35,184 nt of DNA from a virus: IMG/VR virus record IMGVR_UViG_3300030110_000876, positions 1 through 35,184 of that record. The stretch is one strand, 5' to 3'. The notes beneath the pieces are model-generated. The model was not told where the DNA came from and searched no databases. It was given only the letters and a program-made list of their open reading frames with translations. Shown in pieces: positions 9,211-17,595 of the stretch. Numbering within the stretch: position 1 is the first letter of the stretch; each line of letters starts with the position of its first letter. The translations under genes were made by a program, and so were the position numbers.

Positions 9211-10377
9211 TTAGCTTCTAGCAGACCTTTTTAAGTGCTCTATTCTATCTTGCCACTGTTCAAACAAGCTATCACTAACATTCAACCAAGGTGACGTGGT
9301 AGGTATTTGGTTGGCACGTTTTAAAACTGGTTCAGTTGTACCAGTGGTAAAACTTTCAAGTATTTTATAAGAACAATAATTGTCTCCTGAACCGTAGCTG
9401 TGACCGTTGGCTTGCTGTGTGCTAGTCACAATAGCTTGGTCACCAAAACGTGATCTCATTTCAGAAATTCTACCCGCAATATTTTGTCTAGAGGTACCCG
9501 TTGCAATTTGCATTTCTTGAACGGTTGCACCGTTTTCTGATCTACACATATTCCAAATAGTTGCAAGGCGGGTTCCATTTGAATACGGTTGAACGGGTGT
9601 GTTATGTGTTTGCAATGACCTAGAATAATCTAAACGTTGACTGTCACTTGTTTCAAACATATTGAACATAAGCTTTAAAAACATCCATAATTTATCAATT
9701 TCAATATTACTTGTATTCTGTCTTATCTCAATTGTACCATGTGTATTATAATGTTTTAAAGTCACCGCCAAATATTTATAATCTAAACCCATTCTAACAA
9801 GATCACTTATTGATGTAGAATTGTTTATTCTTTCCGCATAGCTAGATAATGAACGGGCCATACTGTGATTAGTTCTAGATTTTGGTTGAATTGAGTTCAT
9901 TATATCTTGGTGTGCGGAATACCTTCTGAAAAAATCAATAGCTAGAGCATTTGGCATTTGGTCATCGTAGTGACCGCCATTGTAAAAAGTTTTACCTTCA
10001 TGAAAATTATCACGGAATGAAAATTGATCTCTAACAGCGGTTAACATATGATTTTTTGAATTGTGAAAGAAATCACTTTTAGATATCCCCATTACTTTAC
10101 GATTTGATATATGAACGTGACCGCCGCAAGCTTTTGTGACTTTTGCACCGTTGGCTTGGTACAATTCTAAAACGAACTTAATATCATTGTAAGCTTCAGT
10201 ACACAGTGGATAATTTGGAAAGTTTATTTCAAAGTCTACACCCGCTGTTCCGTCTTGTTTAACTATTATGTGTTTTAGATTGTTATCTCTAGCAAGCTGT
10301 TGAGCTGTGTTCAAAGAAATACCTGTTCCCTCAAATTCATATCCAAATGTTAAGTATCCATTTTGTAAGTAAGTCAT
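9211..10377 (-). CDS. Amidoligase-family (COOH-NH2 ligase) protein
   Basis: Amidoligases of the glutamine-synthetase-like fold join a carboxyl and an amine using ATP. Family signs here are GYEFEG (residues 12-17), DFEINFP (48-54), CGGHVHIS (84-91) and HGTIEIRQ (213-220), which place the expected acidic, His and Arg active-site residues. A C-terminal winged-helix-like segment (GATVQEMQIATGTSRQNIAG, about residues 283-302) is unusual. The gene has its own terminator; no clear promoter was found, but an operator-like TGAAATATAGTTCA lies upstream at 10471. A gamma-glutamylcyclotransferase-like gene is the next unit upstream; that pairing is known for phage amidoligases. Substrate unknown. Confidence 0.8.
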   Translation of the reverse strand: MTYLQNGYLTFGYEFEGTGISLNTAQQLARDNNLKHIIVKQDGTAGVDFEINFPNYPLCTEAYNDIKFVLELYQANGAKVTKACGGHVHISNRKVMGISKSDFFHNSKNHMLTAVRDQFSFRDNFHEGKTFYNGGHYDDQMPNALAIDFFRRYSAHQDIMNSIQPKSRTNHSMARSLSSYAERINNSTSISDLVRMGLDYKYLAVTLKHYNTHGTIEIRQNTSNIEIDKLWMFLKLMFNMFETSDSQRLDYSRSLQTHNTPVQPYSNGTRLATIWNMCRSENGATVQEMQIATGTSRQNIAGRISEMRSRFGDQAIVTSTQQANGHSYGSGDNYCSYKILESFTTGTTEPVLKRANQIPTTSPWLNVSDSLFEQWQDRIEHLKRSARS

Positions 10378-10697
10378 TGTTTTTATTCCTTTTTTTTAAA
10401 AATTAATGTTTATGTGACATATGCCACACCCTACTCTAACACAGTACACACAACAAAAAAAGCTTTTTTTTGAAATATAGTTCACTTTTTTTTATTAGGT
10501 AAAAAAGCCGCCGCAACGGCCCCACCTTAAAAAATTTTTTTTTATAAGTTTAAAACGTGTGTACACGTATATGTATACACATTGTAGTGGGTTACTAAAT
10601 CCTGCTAGAGCAAAATCCGATGCAGGACTCCCCGATGCAGGATTCTCCGATTCCGAACAATTGTTCGGATATAACGCTGGCAACCTGACCTGCTGGC
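10378..10697. other. Non-coding stretch with operator, tandem repeat and palindrome
   Basis: No gene seen. It holds TGAAATATAGTTCA (10471-10484), the same operator type as at 8831; a near-palindrome GTGTACACGTATATGTATAC around 10557; two tandem 15-base units CCGATGCAGGACTCC and CCGATGCAGGATTCT (10617-10646) followed by CCGATTCCG; and the perfect 16-base palindrome CCGAACAATTGTTCGG (10653-10668). A GC-rich patch GCCGCCGCAACGGCC (about 10507) lies in the middle. No convincing -35/-10 pair for the amidoligase gene could be found. Confidence 0.6.
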
Positions 10698-10727
10698 AAA
10701 AAAAAAGGGCTGGAAAATTCCAGCCCT
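10698..10727 (-). terminator. Rho-independent terminator after the GGCT-like gene
   Basis: On the minus strand AGGGCTGGAA-TT-TTCCAGCCCT, a perfect 10-bp stem, is followed by a run of nine T. It ends the unit 11374-10756. Confidence 0.92.
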
Positions 10728-10755
10728 GTTAATACGAACAAGTCTTTGTCCGATG

Positions 10756-11220
10756 CTACTGTTTGTTAATGAAGATTGGTCTGAACCTTTTCTTTGGTGC
10801 ACTCCAATCATATTGTTTACTTGTATAGTGCGACCAACCAAGTGCTTCGTACAAATGATTCGTGTCTAAATCGAAATCGTTGTACCCCTCAAGGATTGAG
10901 TTGAAGTAAGATTGTGATGGTGGCATAACATTTTTCTTATTCATAATGTATGTCATGTTACCATTTACCGTAATCTTTTTGTACAAATTAGGATAACCTT
11001 CATAGGCATCTAGTCTTTTTTCACACTCATCTGTAATTTCCCAAATACCAATCGGAAGTAGATCATCTGACTTACCGCTGTGTTCAATATCAGCTACACC
11101 TCTGAATACTAACCTCCAATTTGGTAGATATGCAGAACCAAGTTGTTTTGCATTAGGACATCTAGTTGCCATTTGGGTCAAATTAAGATTTGACCCATAA
11201 GCAAAATATAATTTACCCAT
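10756..11220 (-). CDS. Gamma-glutamylcyclotransferase-like (AIG2/GGCT) protein
   Basis: GGCT-fold enzymes release 5-oxoproline from gamma-glutamyl amides. The 154-aa product starts MGKLYFAYGSNLNLTQM, the family's substrate-binding YGSNL loop at residues 8-12, and has the likely catalytic Glu74 in LDAYEGYP. I chose ATG 11220, which has AAAGGAAT upstream, over a longer reading frame that lacks family similarity. It overlaps the upstream 53-aa gene by 8 bases. A 10-bp hairpin (TGGGTCAAAT/ATTTGACCCA, 11174-11197) lies in its first codons. With the amidoligase it may make or edit a gamma-linked amide; the substrate is unknown. Confidence 0.85.
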   Translation of the reverse strand: MGKLYFAYGSNLNLTQMATRCPNAKQLGSAYLPNWRLVFRGVADIEHSGKSDDLLPIGIWEITDECEKRLDAYEGYPNLYKKITVNGNMTYIMNKKNVMPPSQSYFNSILEGYNDFDLDTNHLYEALGWSHYTSKQYDWSAPKKRFRPIFINKQ

Positions 11221-11374
11221 TATTCCTTTTCTCCTTTCTTTCTGTTTTAGTTTTTTGATAACCAACGTCATCACCGTATTCTTTTTGATTGAAAATAAAT
11301 TTTGGATCAGCATATCTTTCACGAAACTGTCTGATTAGCTGTCTGTCTTTTCTGTTAATACTGTTTACTCTCAT
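11213..11374 (-). CDS. 53-aa basic hypothetical protein
   Basis: ATG 11374 has an excellent AAAGGAG six bases upstream; TAA is at 11213-11215. The product begins MRVNSINRKDRQLIRQFRER and is rich in Arg and Lys, with a charged tail (KTKTERKEKRNNG). It is the first gene after the promoter at 11410-11438 and its stop overlaps the GGCT-like start, so the two are translationally coupled. Function unknown. Confidence 0.72.
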   Translation of the reverse strand: MRVNSINRKDRQLIRQFRERYADPKFIFNQKEYGDDVGYQKTKTERKEKRNNG

Positions 11375-15605: not shown

Positions 15606-15634
15606 GTTATATCGGAACAATAATTCAATGTCAA
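15606..15634 (-). promoter_or_regulatory. Sigma70-type promoter with operator-like spacer
   Basis: Minus strand: TTGACA (15634-15629), 17 bases, TATAAC (15611-15606). The spacer reads CGGAACAATAATTCAA in plus orientation (15613-15628), a GAA-N6-TTC member of the operator family at 8831, 11416 and 11480. The -35 overlaps the TGA stop of the upstream zinc-finger gene. It drives the unit 15565-14279. Confidence 0.82.
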
Positions 15635-15807
15635 ACGGTTTTTTTATTTTTTTTATCTTTTTTTTCTTTTTGTAGGTAAACCAGAACAAAACTCTCACAT
15701 TCTGGACATGATAAATTAGTAACCATACTATATTCTGACTCTTCTTCTTCTTCAATATCGTGATCACCACCCCAAATTAATTCTTTACTACAATGCCAAC
15801 AATTCAT
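15631..15807 (-). CDS. 58-aa zinc-finger protein
   Basis: ATG 15807 and TGA 15631-15633 give a product starting MNCWHCSKELIWGGDHDIEE, with CWHC (3-6) and CPEC (34-37) as a zinc-binding four-cysteine set, an acidic run in between, and a basic Lys-rich tail. The start overlaps the stop of the CmoA-like gene by 4 bases. Small zinc proteins with this CWHC...GGDHD look are frequent in phages; the function is not known. Confidence 0.78.
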   Translation of the reverse strand: MNCWHCSKELIWGGDHDIEEEEESEYSMVTNLSCPECESFVLVYLQKEKKDKKNKKTV

Positions 15808-16454
15808 TTTCTACCTCCCACTGCATAGCCCATAAAATTATATGACTGCCAAATCTTAGATACATTACCCAATTGTTTTAATTCTTCATTTAATTCTTTT
15901 TCTGTTTTACAAAACATTGAAACAGCCAACTGGGTGTCTTTATCCAGAATCTCCTGATCTTGAAAATTTGTTCGCTTTTCCTGTATATGCATTTTGTGTA
16001 TCAGGGTCTGTATGATTGTATTATCCAGATATACTTTCTCAGCAATCAATAATATTGCACCTCGATTGATACGTTCTTTTATTAACTTGAGCACACGCTT
16101 ACGTTTTTCTGATCCGAGGAACTGAAGCGTAAACATAGATATAATAACTGAAATATTGTTCGGCTCTGCTGGCAGGATTTCTTCTACATCTCCTAACCTG
16201 AAACCAAAACCTGAATGTATTTTTTTTAATTTATGTTTATCAACTCCGATATATTCACAATCGTCAGCCTTTGGCATCTGAGATAAAAACCGACCTGTTG
16301 AGCATCCGATGTCGATGACTGTGCTCTCTGGTTGAGCATATTCACATCCGATACCTGTAAATATTTTTGTTAACGAAGAATAGTTCGGGATCGACAACTC
16401 TATGTGTTTGTCAAAATCATCAATAGACGCAAAGTCAAATACCTTATACATCAT
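15804..16454 (-). CDS. cmoA-like: CmoA-like SAM-dependent enzyme (candidate carboxy-SAM synthase)
   Basis: CmoA converts SAM plus prephenate to carboxy-SAM. The 216-aa product follows the E. coli protein (247 aa) from memory along its length: SIPNYSSLTKI, motif I VIDIGCSTG (46-54), MFTLQFLGSEKR (107-118), LLIAEK (135-140), KMHIQEKRTN, and IWQSYNFMGYAV at the end. The N-terminus is shorter. At the place of E. coli Arg199, which binds the carboxylate, hand alignment gives Asp173, a serious caveat. It overlaps the DNA methyltransferase by 11 bases. It may make carboxy-SAM or another SAM analogue for that enzyme, or be a plain methyltransferase. Confidence 0.7.
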   Translation of the reverse strand: MMYKVFDFASIDDFDKHIELSIPNYSSLTKIFTGIGCEYAQPESTVIDIGCSTGRFLSQMPKADDCEYIGVDKHKLKKIHSGFGFRLGDVEEILPAEPNNISVIISMFTLQFLGSEKRKRVLKLIKERINRGAILLIAEKVYLDNTIIQTLIHKMHIQEKRTNFQDQEILDKDTQLAVSMFCKTEKELNEELKQLGNVSKIWQSYNFMGYAVGGRK

Positions 16455-17595
16455 TGTCTTGAACCTGTTTTATTCTTGTTCCGAGCCATTCCATAACATT
16501 GATAGACATTGCTCTACCACAAGCTTCATATCTTTTTGATACTGGAGCTTCTTCTTTTGGTTTACCTCTATAAGGTATTTGTGTGTAATTATCAGGTAAA
16601 CCCTGAAGCCTTTCGCACTCCAGTGGTGTTAACCTGCGAACAATCGTATTTCTAGCTACGCAGGGTTGTCTGTTACCACCTGTCATAGCTGTTAATGTAG
16701 GTGAAACCTCTTCTTTTTTAACTCTGGGAGCTCCTCCATCAGGTGATCTGGGTTCAAATACAACACAGGGAGAATTGTTCGGGTTCCTGACCAGCACAGA
16801 ATGATGATCATTAGCCGTAATTGTATACATAGCTCCATTTTGATTTAATCCACTGCCATTTGACTTTGAATGACCCGATGCAATAGCTACTAAATCAGTA
16901 GCAGACTTATAATCCCGAGCGGCTATTGTTCCTGCGATGTCGTCTTGAGTGTATTGATCGCTTCTTGTAAGGCGATGCGTAATTGTTCGGGTATCTTCTT
17001 CCCTTTTCTCCCTGCGCGGCGGAGTATCCCATGACAATGCTTCTCCGTTAAATAAAACCTTTGCTGGATTTCTCCAGTTTCTAGAATGTCCGACAACGAA
17101 GATACGCCTTCGCATTTGTGGGATTGCTCTTGGAAATCGTTGTGTTCGTATGTACTGAGTGTCAAGAACCCTGTAGGCGAACCCATACCCGAGTTCTGCC
17201 AACCCTCCAAGGAAGGAAGCAAGGTCTTTTCCTTCGTTAGATGACAAGACACCGGGGACATTCTCCCAAAGTACCCATGTGGGATTAAGTCTTTTAATAA
17301 GACGTATAAACTCAAGTGCGAGATTTCCTCTATCTGATTTAATCCCTTCCCGAAGTCCTGCCACGCTGAAGGTTGCACATGGTGTTCCTCCAACAAGGAC
17401 ATCTGGAGACTGTCCTCCGATGTCTTTCTTTTCGATTTTCGTAAAGTCGCCATAATTTTTCACCTCTGGATAATGATATTGTAAAACAGCGGAACGAAAA
17501 GGCTCTATTTCAGATACCCCTATACATTCGTAACCAAGTGGTTCCCAAGCTACACTAGCACTTTCTATTCCGCTACATATTGATAAAAATTTCAC
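16444..17595 (-). CDS. Cytosine-C5 DNA methyltransferase with Arg in motif X
   Basis: C5 methyltransferases flip out cytosine and attack C6 through a Cys. All motifs are present: I FLSICSGIES, IV GGTPCATFSVAG with Cys73, VI WENVPG with Glu111, VIII QMRRRIFVVG (160-169), IX RRLTPLECERLQGLP, X RYEACGRAMSINVM. The target-recognition region is about residues 190-315. Motif X normally has Gly-Asn-Ser/Ala; here Arg361 (codon AGA, 16515-16513) replaces the Asn. A basic residue at the matching place of M.MpeI (N374K) gives carboxy-SAM use. GTG 17595 overlaps the upstream stop with GGAAGG before it. No restriction gene is adjacent. Likely DNA modification; the transferred group is uncertain. Confidence 0.9.
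   Translation of the reverse strand: MKFLSICSGIESASVAWEPLGYECIGVSEIEPFRSAVLQYHYPEVKNYGDFTKIEKKDIGGQSPDVLVGGTPCATFSVAGLREGIKSDRGNLALEFIRLIKRLNPTWVLWENVPGVLSSNEGKDLASFLGGLAELGYGFAYRVLDTQYIRTQRFPRAIPQMRRRIFVVGHSRNWRNPAKVLFNGEALSWDTPPRREKREEDTRTITHRLTRSDQYTQDDIAGTIAARDYKSATDLVAIASGHSKSNGSGLNQNGAMYTITANDHHSVLVRNPNNSPCVVFEPRSPDGGAPRVKKEEVSPTLTAMTGGNRQPCVARNTIVRRLTPLECERLQGLPDNYTQIPYRGKPKEEAPVSKRYEACGRAMSINVMEWLGTRIKQVQDNDV

Follow-up and report, generated by a model that had tools for sequence, protein, structure and literature searches.

A predicted phage gene pair for DNA cytosine carboxymethylation appears to belong to a lineage that evolved apart from the cyanophage enzymes

Described carboxymethylation systems and the gene pair of the window

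Carboxymethylation of DNA cytosine has been described from Synechococcus phage S-B43, whose CmoA, CmoX and CmoY proteins (here SpCmoA, SpCmoX and SpCmoY) make 5-carboxymethylcytosine (5cxmC) and its glycyl amide (Nat Commun, Dec 2025, PMC12783734). SpCmoA produces carboxy-SAM, ten times faster than the E. coli CmoA, SpCmoX transfers the carboxymethyl group to the C5 of cytosine at GC sites, and SpCmoY is a glycine ligase that acts on the 5cxmC carboxylate (PMC12783734). In the crystal structure 8YF3, Arg350 of SpCmoX, at the position of HhaI Asn304, touches the carboxymethyl group; the wild-type enzyme takes carboxy-SAM only, and modification by the S-B43 enzymes blocks HhaI (PMC12783734). A basic residue in place of the motif X Asn also lets the engineered M.MpeI N374K, another C5 methyltransferase, use carboxy-SAM (cited in PMC12783734). 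The published census of 5cxmC systems retained only sequences with the motif SPPC (PMC12783734). In the E. coli enzyme, a salt bridge joins Arg199 to the carboxylate of carboxy-SAM (PMC3663124).

The stretch of DNA analysed here (the window, 35,184 nucleotides of the IMG/VR virus record IMGVR_UViG_3300030110_000876) carries two overlapping ORFs that the initial annotation had proposed as a similar pair. Both were found in place on the minus strand (383 and 216 aa), in the order CmoX–CmoA and with 11 bases in common (16444–16454). The features of this region are:

16444–17595, minus strand: predicted CmoX-like DNA cytosine C5-carboxymethyltransferase, 383 aa, GTG start (PF00145, motifs, Arg361)
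16513–16515, minus strand: codon 361, Arg361 of CmoX, numbered from the GTG start
15804–16454, minus strand: predicted CmoA-like carboxy-SAM synthase, 216 aa, with Asp173 at the E. coli Arg199 column and the invariant Lys172 (CmoA chains, TIGR00740, fold, residue table)
15631–15807, minus strand: zinc-ribbon-like ORF of 58 aa directly after CmoA

A small zinc-ribbon-like protein of this kind recurs near CmoX in 15 loci.

The assignment of the larger ORF to the C5 methyltransferases, with an Arg in motif X, is borne out by the family profile search, in which PF00145 covers residues 2–376 (E=8e-50). Motifs I, IV (PC), VI (ENV), VIII, IX and X of the family are present, including GGTPCATFS with the catalytic Cys73 in motif IV, ENV with Glu111 in motif VI and QMRRR (QxRRR) in motif VIII. 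Motif X reads ACGRAMS, where Arg361 replaces the Asn of the family, and in the alignment this residue stands in the column of SpCmoX Arg350 and HhaI Asn304. The parallel with M.MpeI N374K that the initial annotation had drawn holds at this column, and PMC12783734 draws the same one for the cyanophage enzyme; that protein is, however, a laboratory mutant with Lys and a CG target, whereas the enzyme of the window is natural, has Arg and comes with its own cofactor gene. Compared to the S-B43 system, the window also combines a phage gene for a carboxy-SAM synthase with a C5 methyltransferase carrying Arg at the HhaI Asn304 position, but its CmoX is only 25% identical to SpCmoX and has GGTPC instead of the GSPPC found in 87 of 87 SpCmoX relatives. 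It lacks SPPC, which is a filter of the survey and no catalytic requirement.

The second ORF had been read as CmoA-like, and three kinds of search agree with this. Against PDB sequences the good matches were CmoA/YecO chains exclusively (E=3e-14, for 4iwn, to 6e-14; next best 0.04). The best NCBIfam model was TIGR00740 (CmoA) at 77.5 bits, a value under the 193.3-bit equivalog cut-off, as is that of the experimentally proven SpCmoA (115.6 bits). Finally, an AlphaFold2 model (pLDDT 88.6) gave the six CmoA/YecO chains (4iwn/4gek/1im8) as its top six PDB matches in a fold search. With the E. coli CmoA (4gek, 4iwn) the protein shares the fold and the motifs FTLQFL, EK, H..KR and EI..K, although the identity is 26% and Arg199 is replaced by Asp; moreover, the partner of the E. 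coli protein is the tRNA enzyme CmoB, while here it is a DNA cytosine enzyme. A search with an alignment led by E. coli CmoA returned enterobacterial CmoAs exclusively, which served as a host-type outgroup, and one built from diverse phage CmoAs varied too much to be used for scanning.

The replacement of Arg199 by Asp173 had been put forward against carboxy-SAM as the donor. The substitution itself stands in the alignment, but the argument falls, because the active SpCmoA has Glu in this column and Asp or Glu is common to both phage lineages (76 of the 76 distinct CmoAs of the window and S-B43 lineages), so that Arg199 is evidently not needed for activity in phages. In these same 76 proteins the residues matching Lys198 and Lys165 never vary, and the one matching Glu164 hardly does. 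Elsewhere among phage CmoAs the Arg199 column varies, the jumbo phages of Erwinia and Yersinia having Arg, and others Gln, Ala or Thr.

Phylogeny of the Arg enzymes and their association with CmoA

The enzymes most similar to the CmoX of the window are not those of the cyanophages. Its identity to Asn-type (Gly-Asn) enzymes is 42–47%, versus 25% to SpCmoX, and its nearest named relatives are methyltransferases of Pseudanabaena phage Pan4, Roseobacter phage CRP-821 and Caudoviricetes ct2os315 (42–44%), which differ from it in having Gly-Asn in motif X and in coming from genomes without CmoA. In a maximum-likelihood tree computed with the motif X columns taken out, the window lineage (17 rows, support 100/100) nests within the Asn-type methyltransferases, while the S-B43 lineage (6 rows, 100/99) is found elsewhere in the family, beside enzymes that have Leu or Met in this position. 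A tree constrained to keep the Arg enzymes as a single clade was worse by 206 log-likelihood units (AU test, p-AU 2.4e-50), with the caution that SpCmoX and its neighbours sit on long branches, although the identities given above point the same way. A single origin is ruled out by this test, with that same caveat, and therefore Arg was gained at least twice, each time together with CmoA. From sequence comparison, the CmoX of the window appears to represent a lineage that evolved apart from the cyanophage CmoX and arrived at the same trick. GGTPC is found throughout the lineage wherever motif IV is readable and the census required SPPC, so the published criterion excludes it and the census would omit the whole lineage. 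The chemistry is already published, and what is new here is the independent origin and a lineage outside that criterion.

The change of the motif X Asn into a basic residue, made in the laboratory with Lys and found in cyanophages as Arg, would be a path to a new DNA base that evolution can take repeatedly. The Asn and Arg relatives offer material for dissecting cofactor choice, and for DNA labelling the lineage provides natural enzymes whose target-recognition region is different.

Relatives of the window CmoX were drawn from 2.9 million viral contigs, and searches of bacterial and archaeal genomes found none. Motif X has Arg in 62 of 62 readable rows (contigs fetched twice are counted). The initial annotation had named the same Arg occurring as often without a CmoA-like neighbor as evidence against the pair. 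This is not what the viral contigs show: CmoA was found in 49 of 54 distinct loci (duplicate contigs removed), mostly directly beside CmoX, and with the constant Arg this speaks against a chance pairing, although these counts are not independent, since most loci are of one ancestry and, within the lineage, repeat a single evolutionary event. Three of the five loci without CmoA lie on short contigs, and the other two on 59-kb contigs where a giant ORF at another place contains a CmoA-like domain. By comparison, none of the 83 nearest Asn-type methyltransferases has CmoA within 4 kb, nor a SpCmoY-like ligase, and CmoA was absent from nine phage genomes with Asn-type enzymes, one of which has just an interrupted fragment scoring 24 bits. 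Outside the window lineage, Arg occurs in six of the seven phages examined that have both CmoA and a C5 methyltransferase (S-B43, S-CRM01, Moraxella Mcat8, Erwinia Yoloswag, Erwinia SNUABM_46 and Yersinia fHe-Yen9-02), the seventh being a Staphylococcus phage with Gly (see below).

Several loci depart from the common arrangement. The two 59-kb contigs (those of L037 and L029) have an Arg CmoX and no stand-alone CmoA, and the CmoA-like domain is found in ORFs of 1230–1507 aa (L307:1-2091 and L308:1-2094; TIGR00740 E=6e-7). At L036:3-2292, CmoY and CmoX are of the window lineage and the CmoA upstream of CmoX comes from another lineage, grouping with that of Moraxella phage Mcat8 (support 100/100); the partner was therefore replaced, not lost. 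Three loci (L021:7758-9392, L020:2278-3912 and L052:2503-4137) encode a CmoX of 544 aa with more than 100 extra residues before motif IX, including a helix-turn-helix-like part. A ThyX-like thymidylate synthase gene directly follows CmoX in two contigs (L021:9379-10008 and L029:11106-11735), and in L021 it lies between CmoX and CmoA. At L015:8936-10011 (the same contig as L056) a frame change, either a sequencing error or a broken gene, divides CmoX into two ORFs, and the CmoA after it is intact.

Proposed pathway, ligases and alternative explanations

Very likely, the two genes of this marine phage constitute a pair for DNA carboxymethylation that makes and uses carboxy-SAM. We infer the activity of the window pair, its target sequence and its benefit to the phage; gene content, residues, the predicted CmoA fold, phylogeny and co-occurrence were established in this analysis, and both reactions and the contact between Arg and the carboxymethyl group were established elsewhere for homologues. 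CmoA (15804–16454) would convert SAM and prephenate into carboxy-SAM. The target cytosine would then be flipped out by CmoX (16444–17595), with Cys73 attacking C6, Arg361 holding the carboxylate of carboxy-SAM and the carboxymethyl group passing to C5, leaving 5cxmC in the phage genome, where it would probably protect the DNA from host nucleases. In some relatives a CmoY ligase probably amidates the carboxylate with glycine or another amine, whereas in the window subgroup the pathway may end with 5cxmC, or another enzyme may extend it. 5-Carboxymethylcytosine as the product had been suggested from the sequence, and the activity shown for the S-B43 CmoA and CmoX, including resistance to HhaI (PMC12783734), supports that suggestion by analogy.

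The ligase adds to this picture. As in S-B43, CmoY homologues adjoin CmoX in more distant relatives of the window, about 16 out of 54, and are 44–51% identical to SpCmoY, a much higher identity between the two lineages than that of CmoA (29%) or CmoX (25%). This suggests that the CmoY gene moved between the lineages and that its substrate, 5cxmC, is made in both; short of an assay, it is the best evidence, drawn from sequence likeness, that 5cxmC is the product in the window lineage. Unlike S-B43, CmoY was found neither in the 35.5-kb record (a partial genome) nor in a 59-kb near relative (G003, CmoX 93% identical). The terminase of the window resembles those of Pelagibacter phages HTVC023P and HTVC027P (56–61%), and genomes of this type average about 58.8 kb (PMC9599517). 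The record is thus probably about 60% of a genome, and for this reason the absence of CmoY from it is not final. If the host is a SAR11-type bacterium, as the terminase alone suggests, abundant viruses of the ocean may carry the modification.

An ordinary SAM-dependent enzyme making 5-methylcytosine, with the Arg simply tolerated and CmoA serving instead to modify host tRNA or to deplete SAM, would fit the fact that the closest homologues (42–47% identity) are ordinary Gly-Asn enzymes and that the lineage is known from sequence alone. However, the strict linkage of Arg with CmoA, the gene overlap, the CmoY homologues beside CmoX in relatives and the exclusive use of carboxy-SAM by wild-type SpCmoX, which has the same Arg (PMC12783734), make this explanation very improbable. 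We give still less credence to a CmoA-like protein that produces a different SAM analogue, from which CmoX would transfer another acidic group. Apart from the missing Arg199, the pocket of the window CmoA differs at two residues that bind the adenosyl and methionine parts in E. coli, Asn90 and Asn132, which are Lys and Met here; but these are Leu and Leu in SpCmoA, which also lacks Arg199 (Glu) and yet makes carboxy-SAM efficiently, and the equivalents of Lys198 and Glu164-Lys165 are retained in the window protein.

The carboxymethylation pair may also be only the first part of a longer pathway, with 5cxmC as an intermediate that an amidoligase turns into an amide. This would extend the proposed reading without denying it, and concerns two further genes of the window:

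9211–10377, minus strand: Amidoligase_2 protein with a conserved C-terminal winged-helix-like region (PF12224 E=4e-6, alignment, low-confidence model)
10756–11322, minus strand: gamma-glutamyl cyclotransferase-like protein (GGACT), the usual partner of the amidoligase (PF06094 E=1e-6; phrog_2520; pairing)

The first of these belongs to a family of amide ligases, its C-terminus resembles a DNA-binding domain, and it is present in the close relatives where this could be checked, which also have no CmoY. On the other hand, some 5.4 kb separate it from CmoA and some 6 kb from CmoX, its catalytic part is poorly modelled, and among relatives with CmoX 92–95% identical it is just 37–42% identical. 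The amidoligase–GGACT pair (9211–11322) is found in many viral contigs whether or not CmoX is there, and CmoA is absent from 16 other amidoligase-carrying records, several of them 35–59 kb, so that no link between amidoligase and CmoX can be claimed. We rejected the amidoligase as a substitute for CmoY on these grounds, together with the poor model, and regard the extended pathway as unlikely.

For the carboxymethylation pair as such, a probable scenario is that DNA cytosine carboxymethylation evolved at least twice, with the motif X Arg and CmoA gained independently by a lineage of ordinary Asn-type phage methyltransferases, represented here in a pelagiphage-like virus, and with a CmoY-type ligase common to both origins. 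A third arrangement with Gly in place of Arg may exist in a Staphylococcus phage, and the final base in the window subgroup would be either 5cxmC itself or a product that some still unrecognised ligase makes from it.

CmoA and C5 methyltransferases in other phages

In Staphylococcus phage vB-SscS-F1 (MW589261.1, L401:3974-6492), CmoA, a CmoY homologue (E=2e-49) and a C5 methyltransferase stand in a row. Motif IV of this methyltransferase is GSPCQSFS, and the column of SpCmoX Arg350 is occupied by Gly-Gly (VVGGVINQL). From its sequence the enzyme is a possible carboxymethyltransferase without Arg, which may thus not be the sole solution. The Arg enzymes, the Asn enzymes and this Gly enzyme beside CmoA and CmoY are natural comparisons that make the cofactor switch testable.

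Phages Melnitz-1, LoVEphage and FPSV-S3 (L310, L311 and L312) have C5 methyltransferases of the SPPC type with Leu or Met at the Asn/Arg place, and no CmoA in their genomes. In Pseudomonas phage SM1 (NC_041877.1, L406:1201-6328), a genome in which no C5 methyltransferase was found, a CmoA-like gene adjoins a ParB_N-Methyltransf_23 fusion, and carboxy-SAM may serve a different target there.
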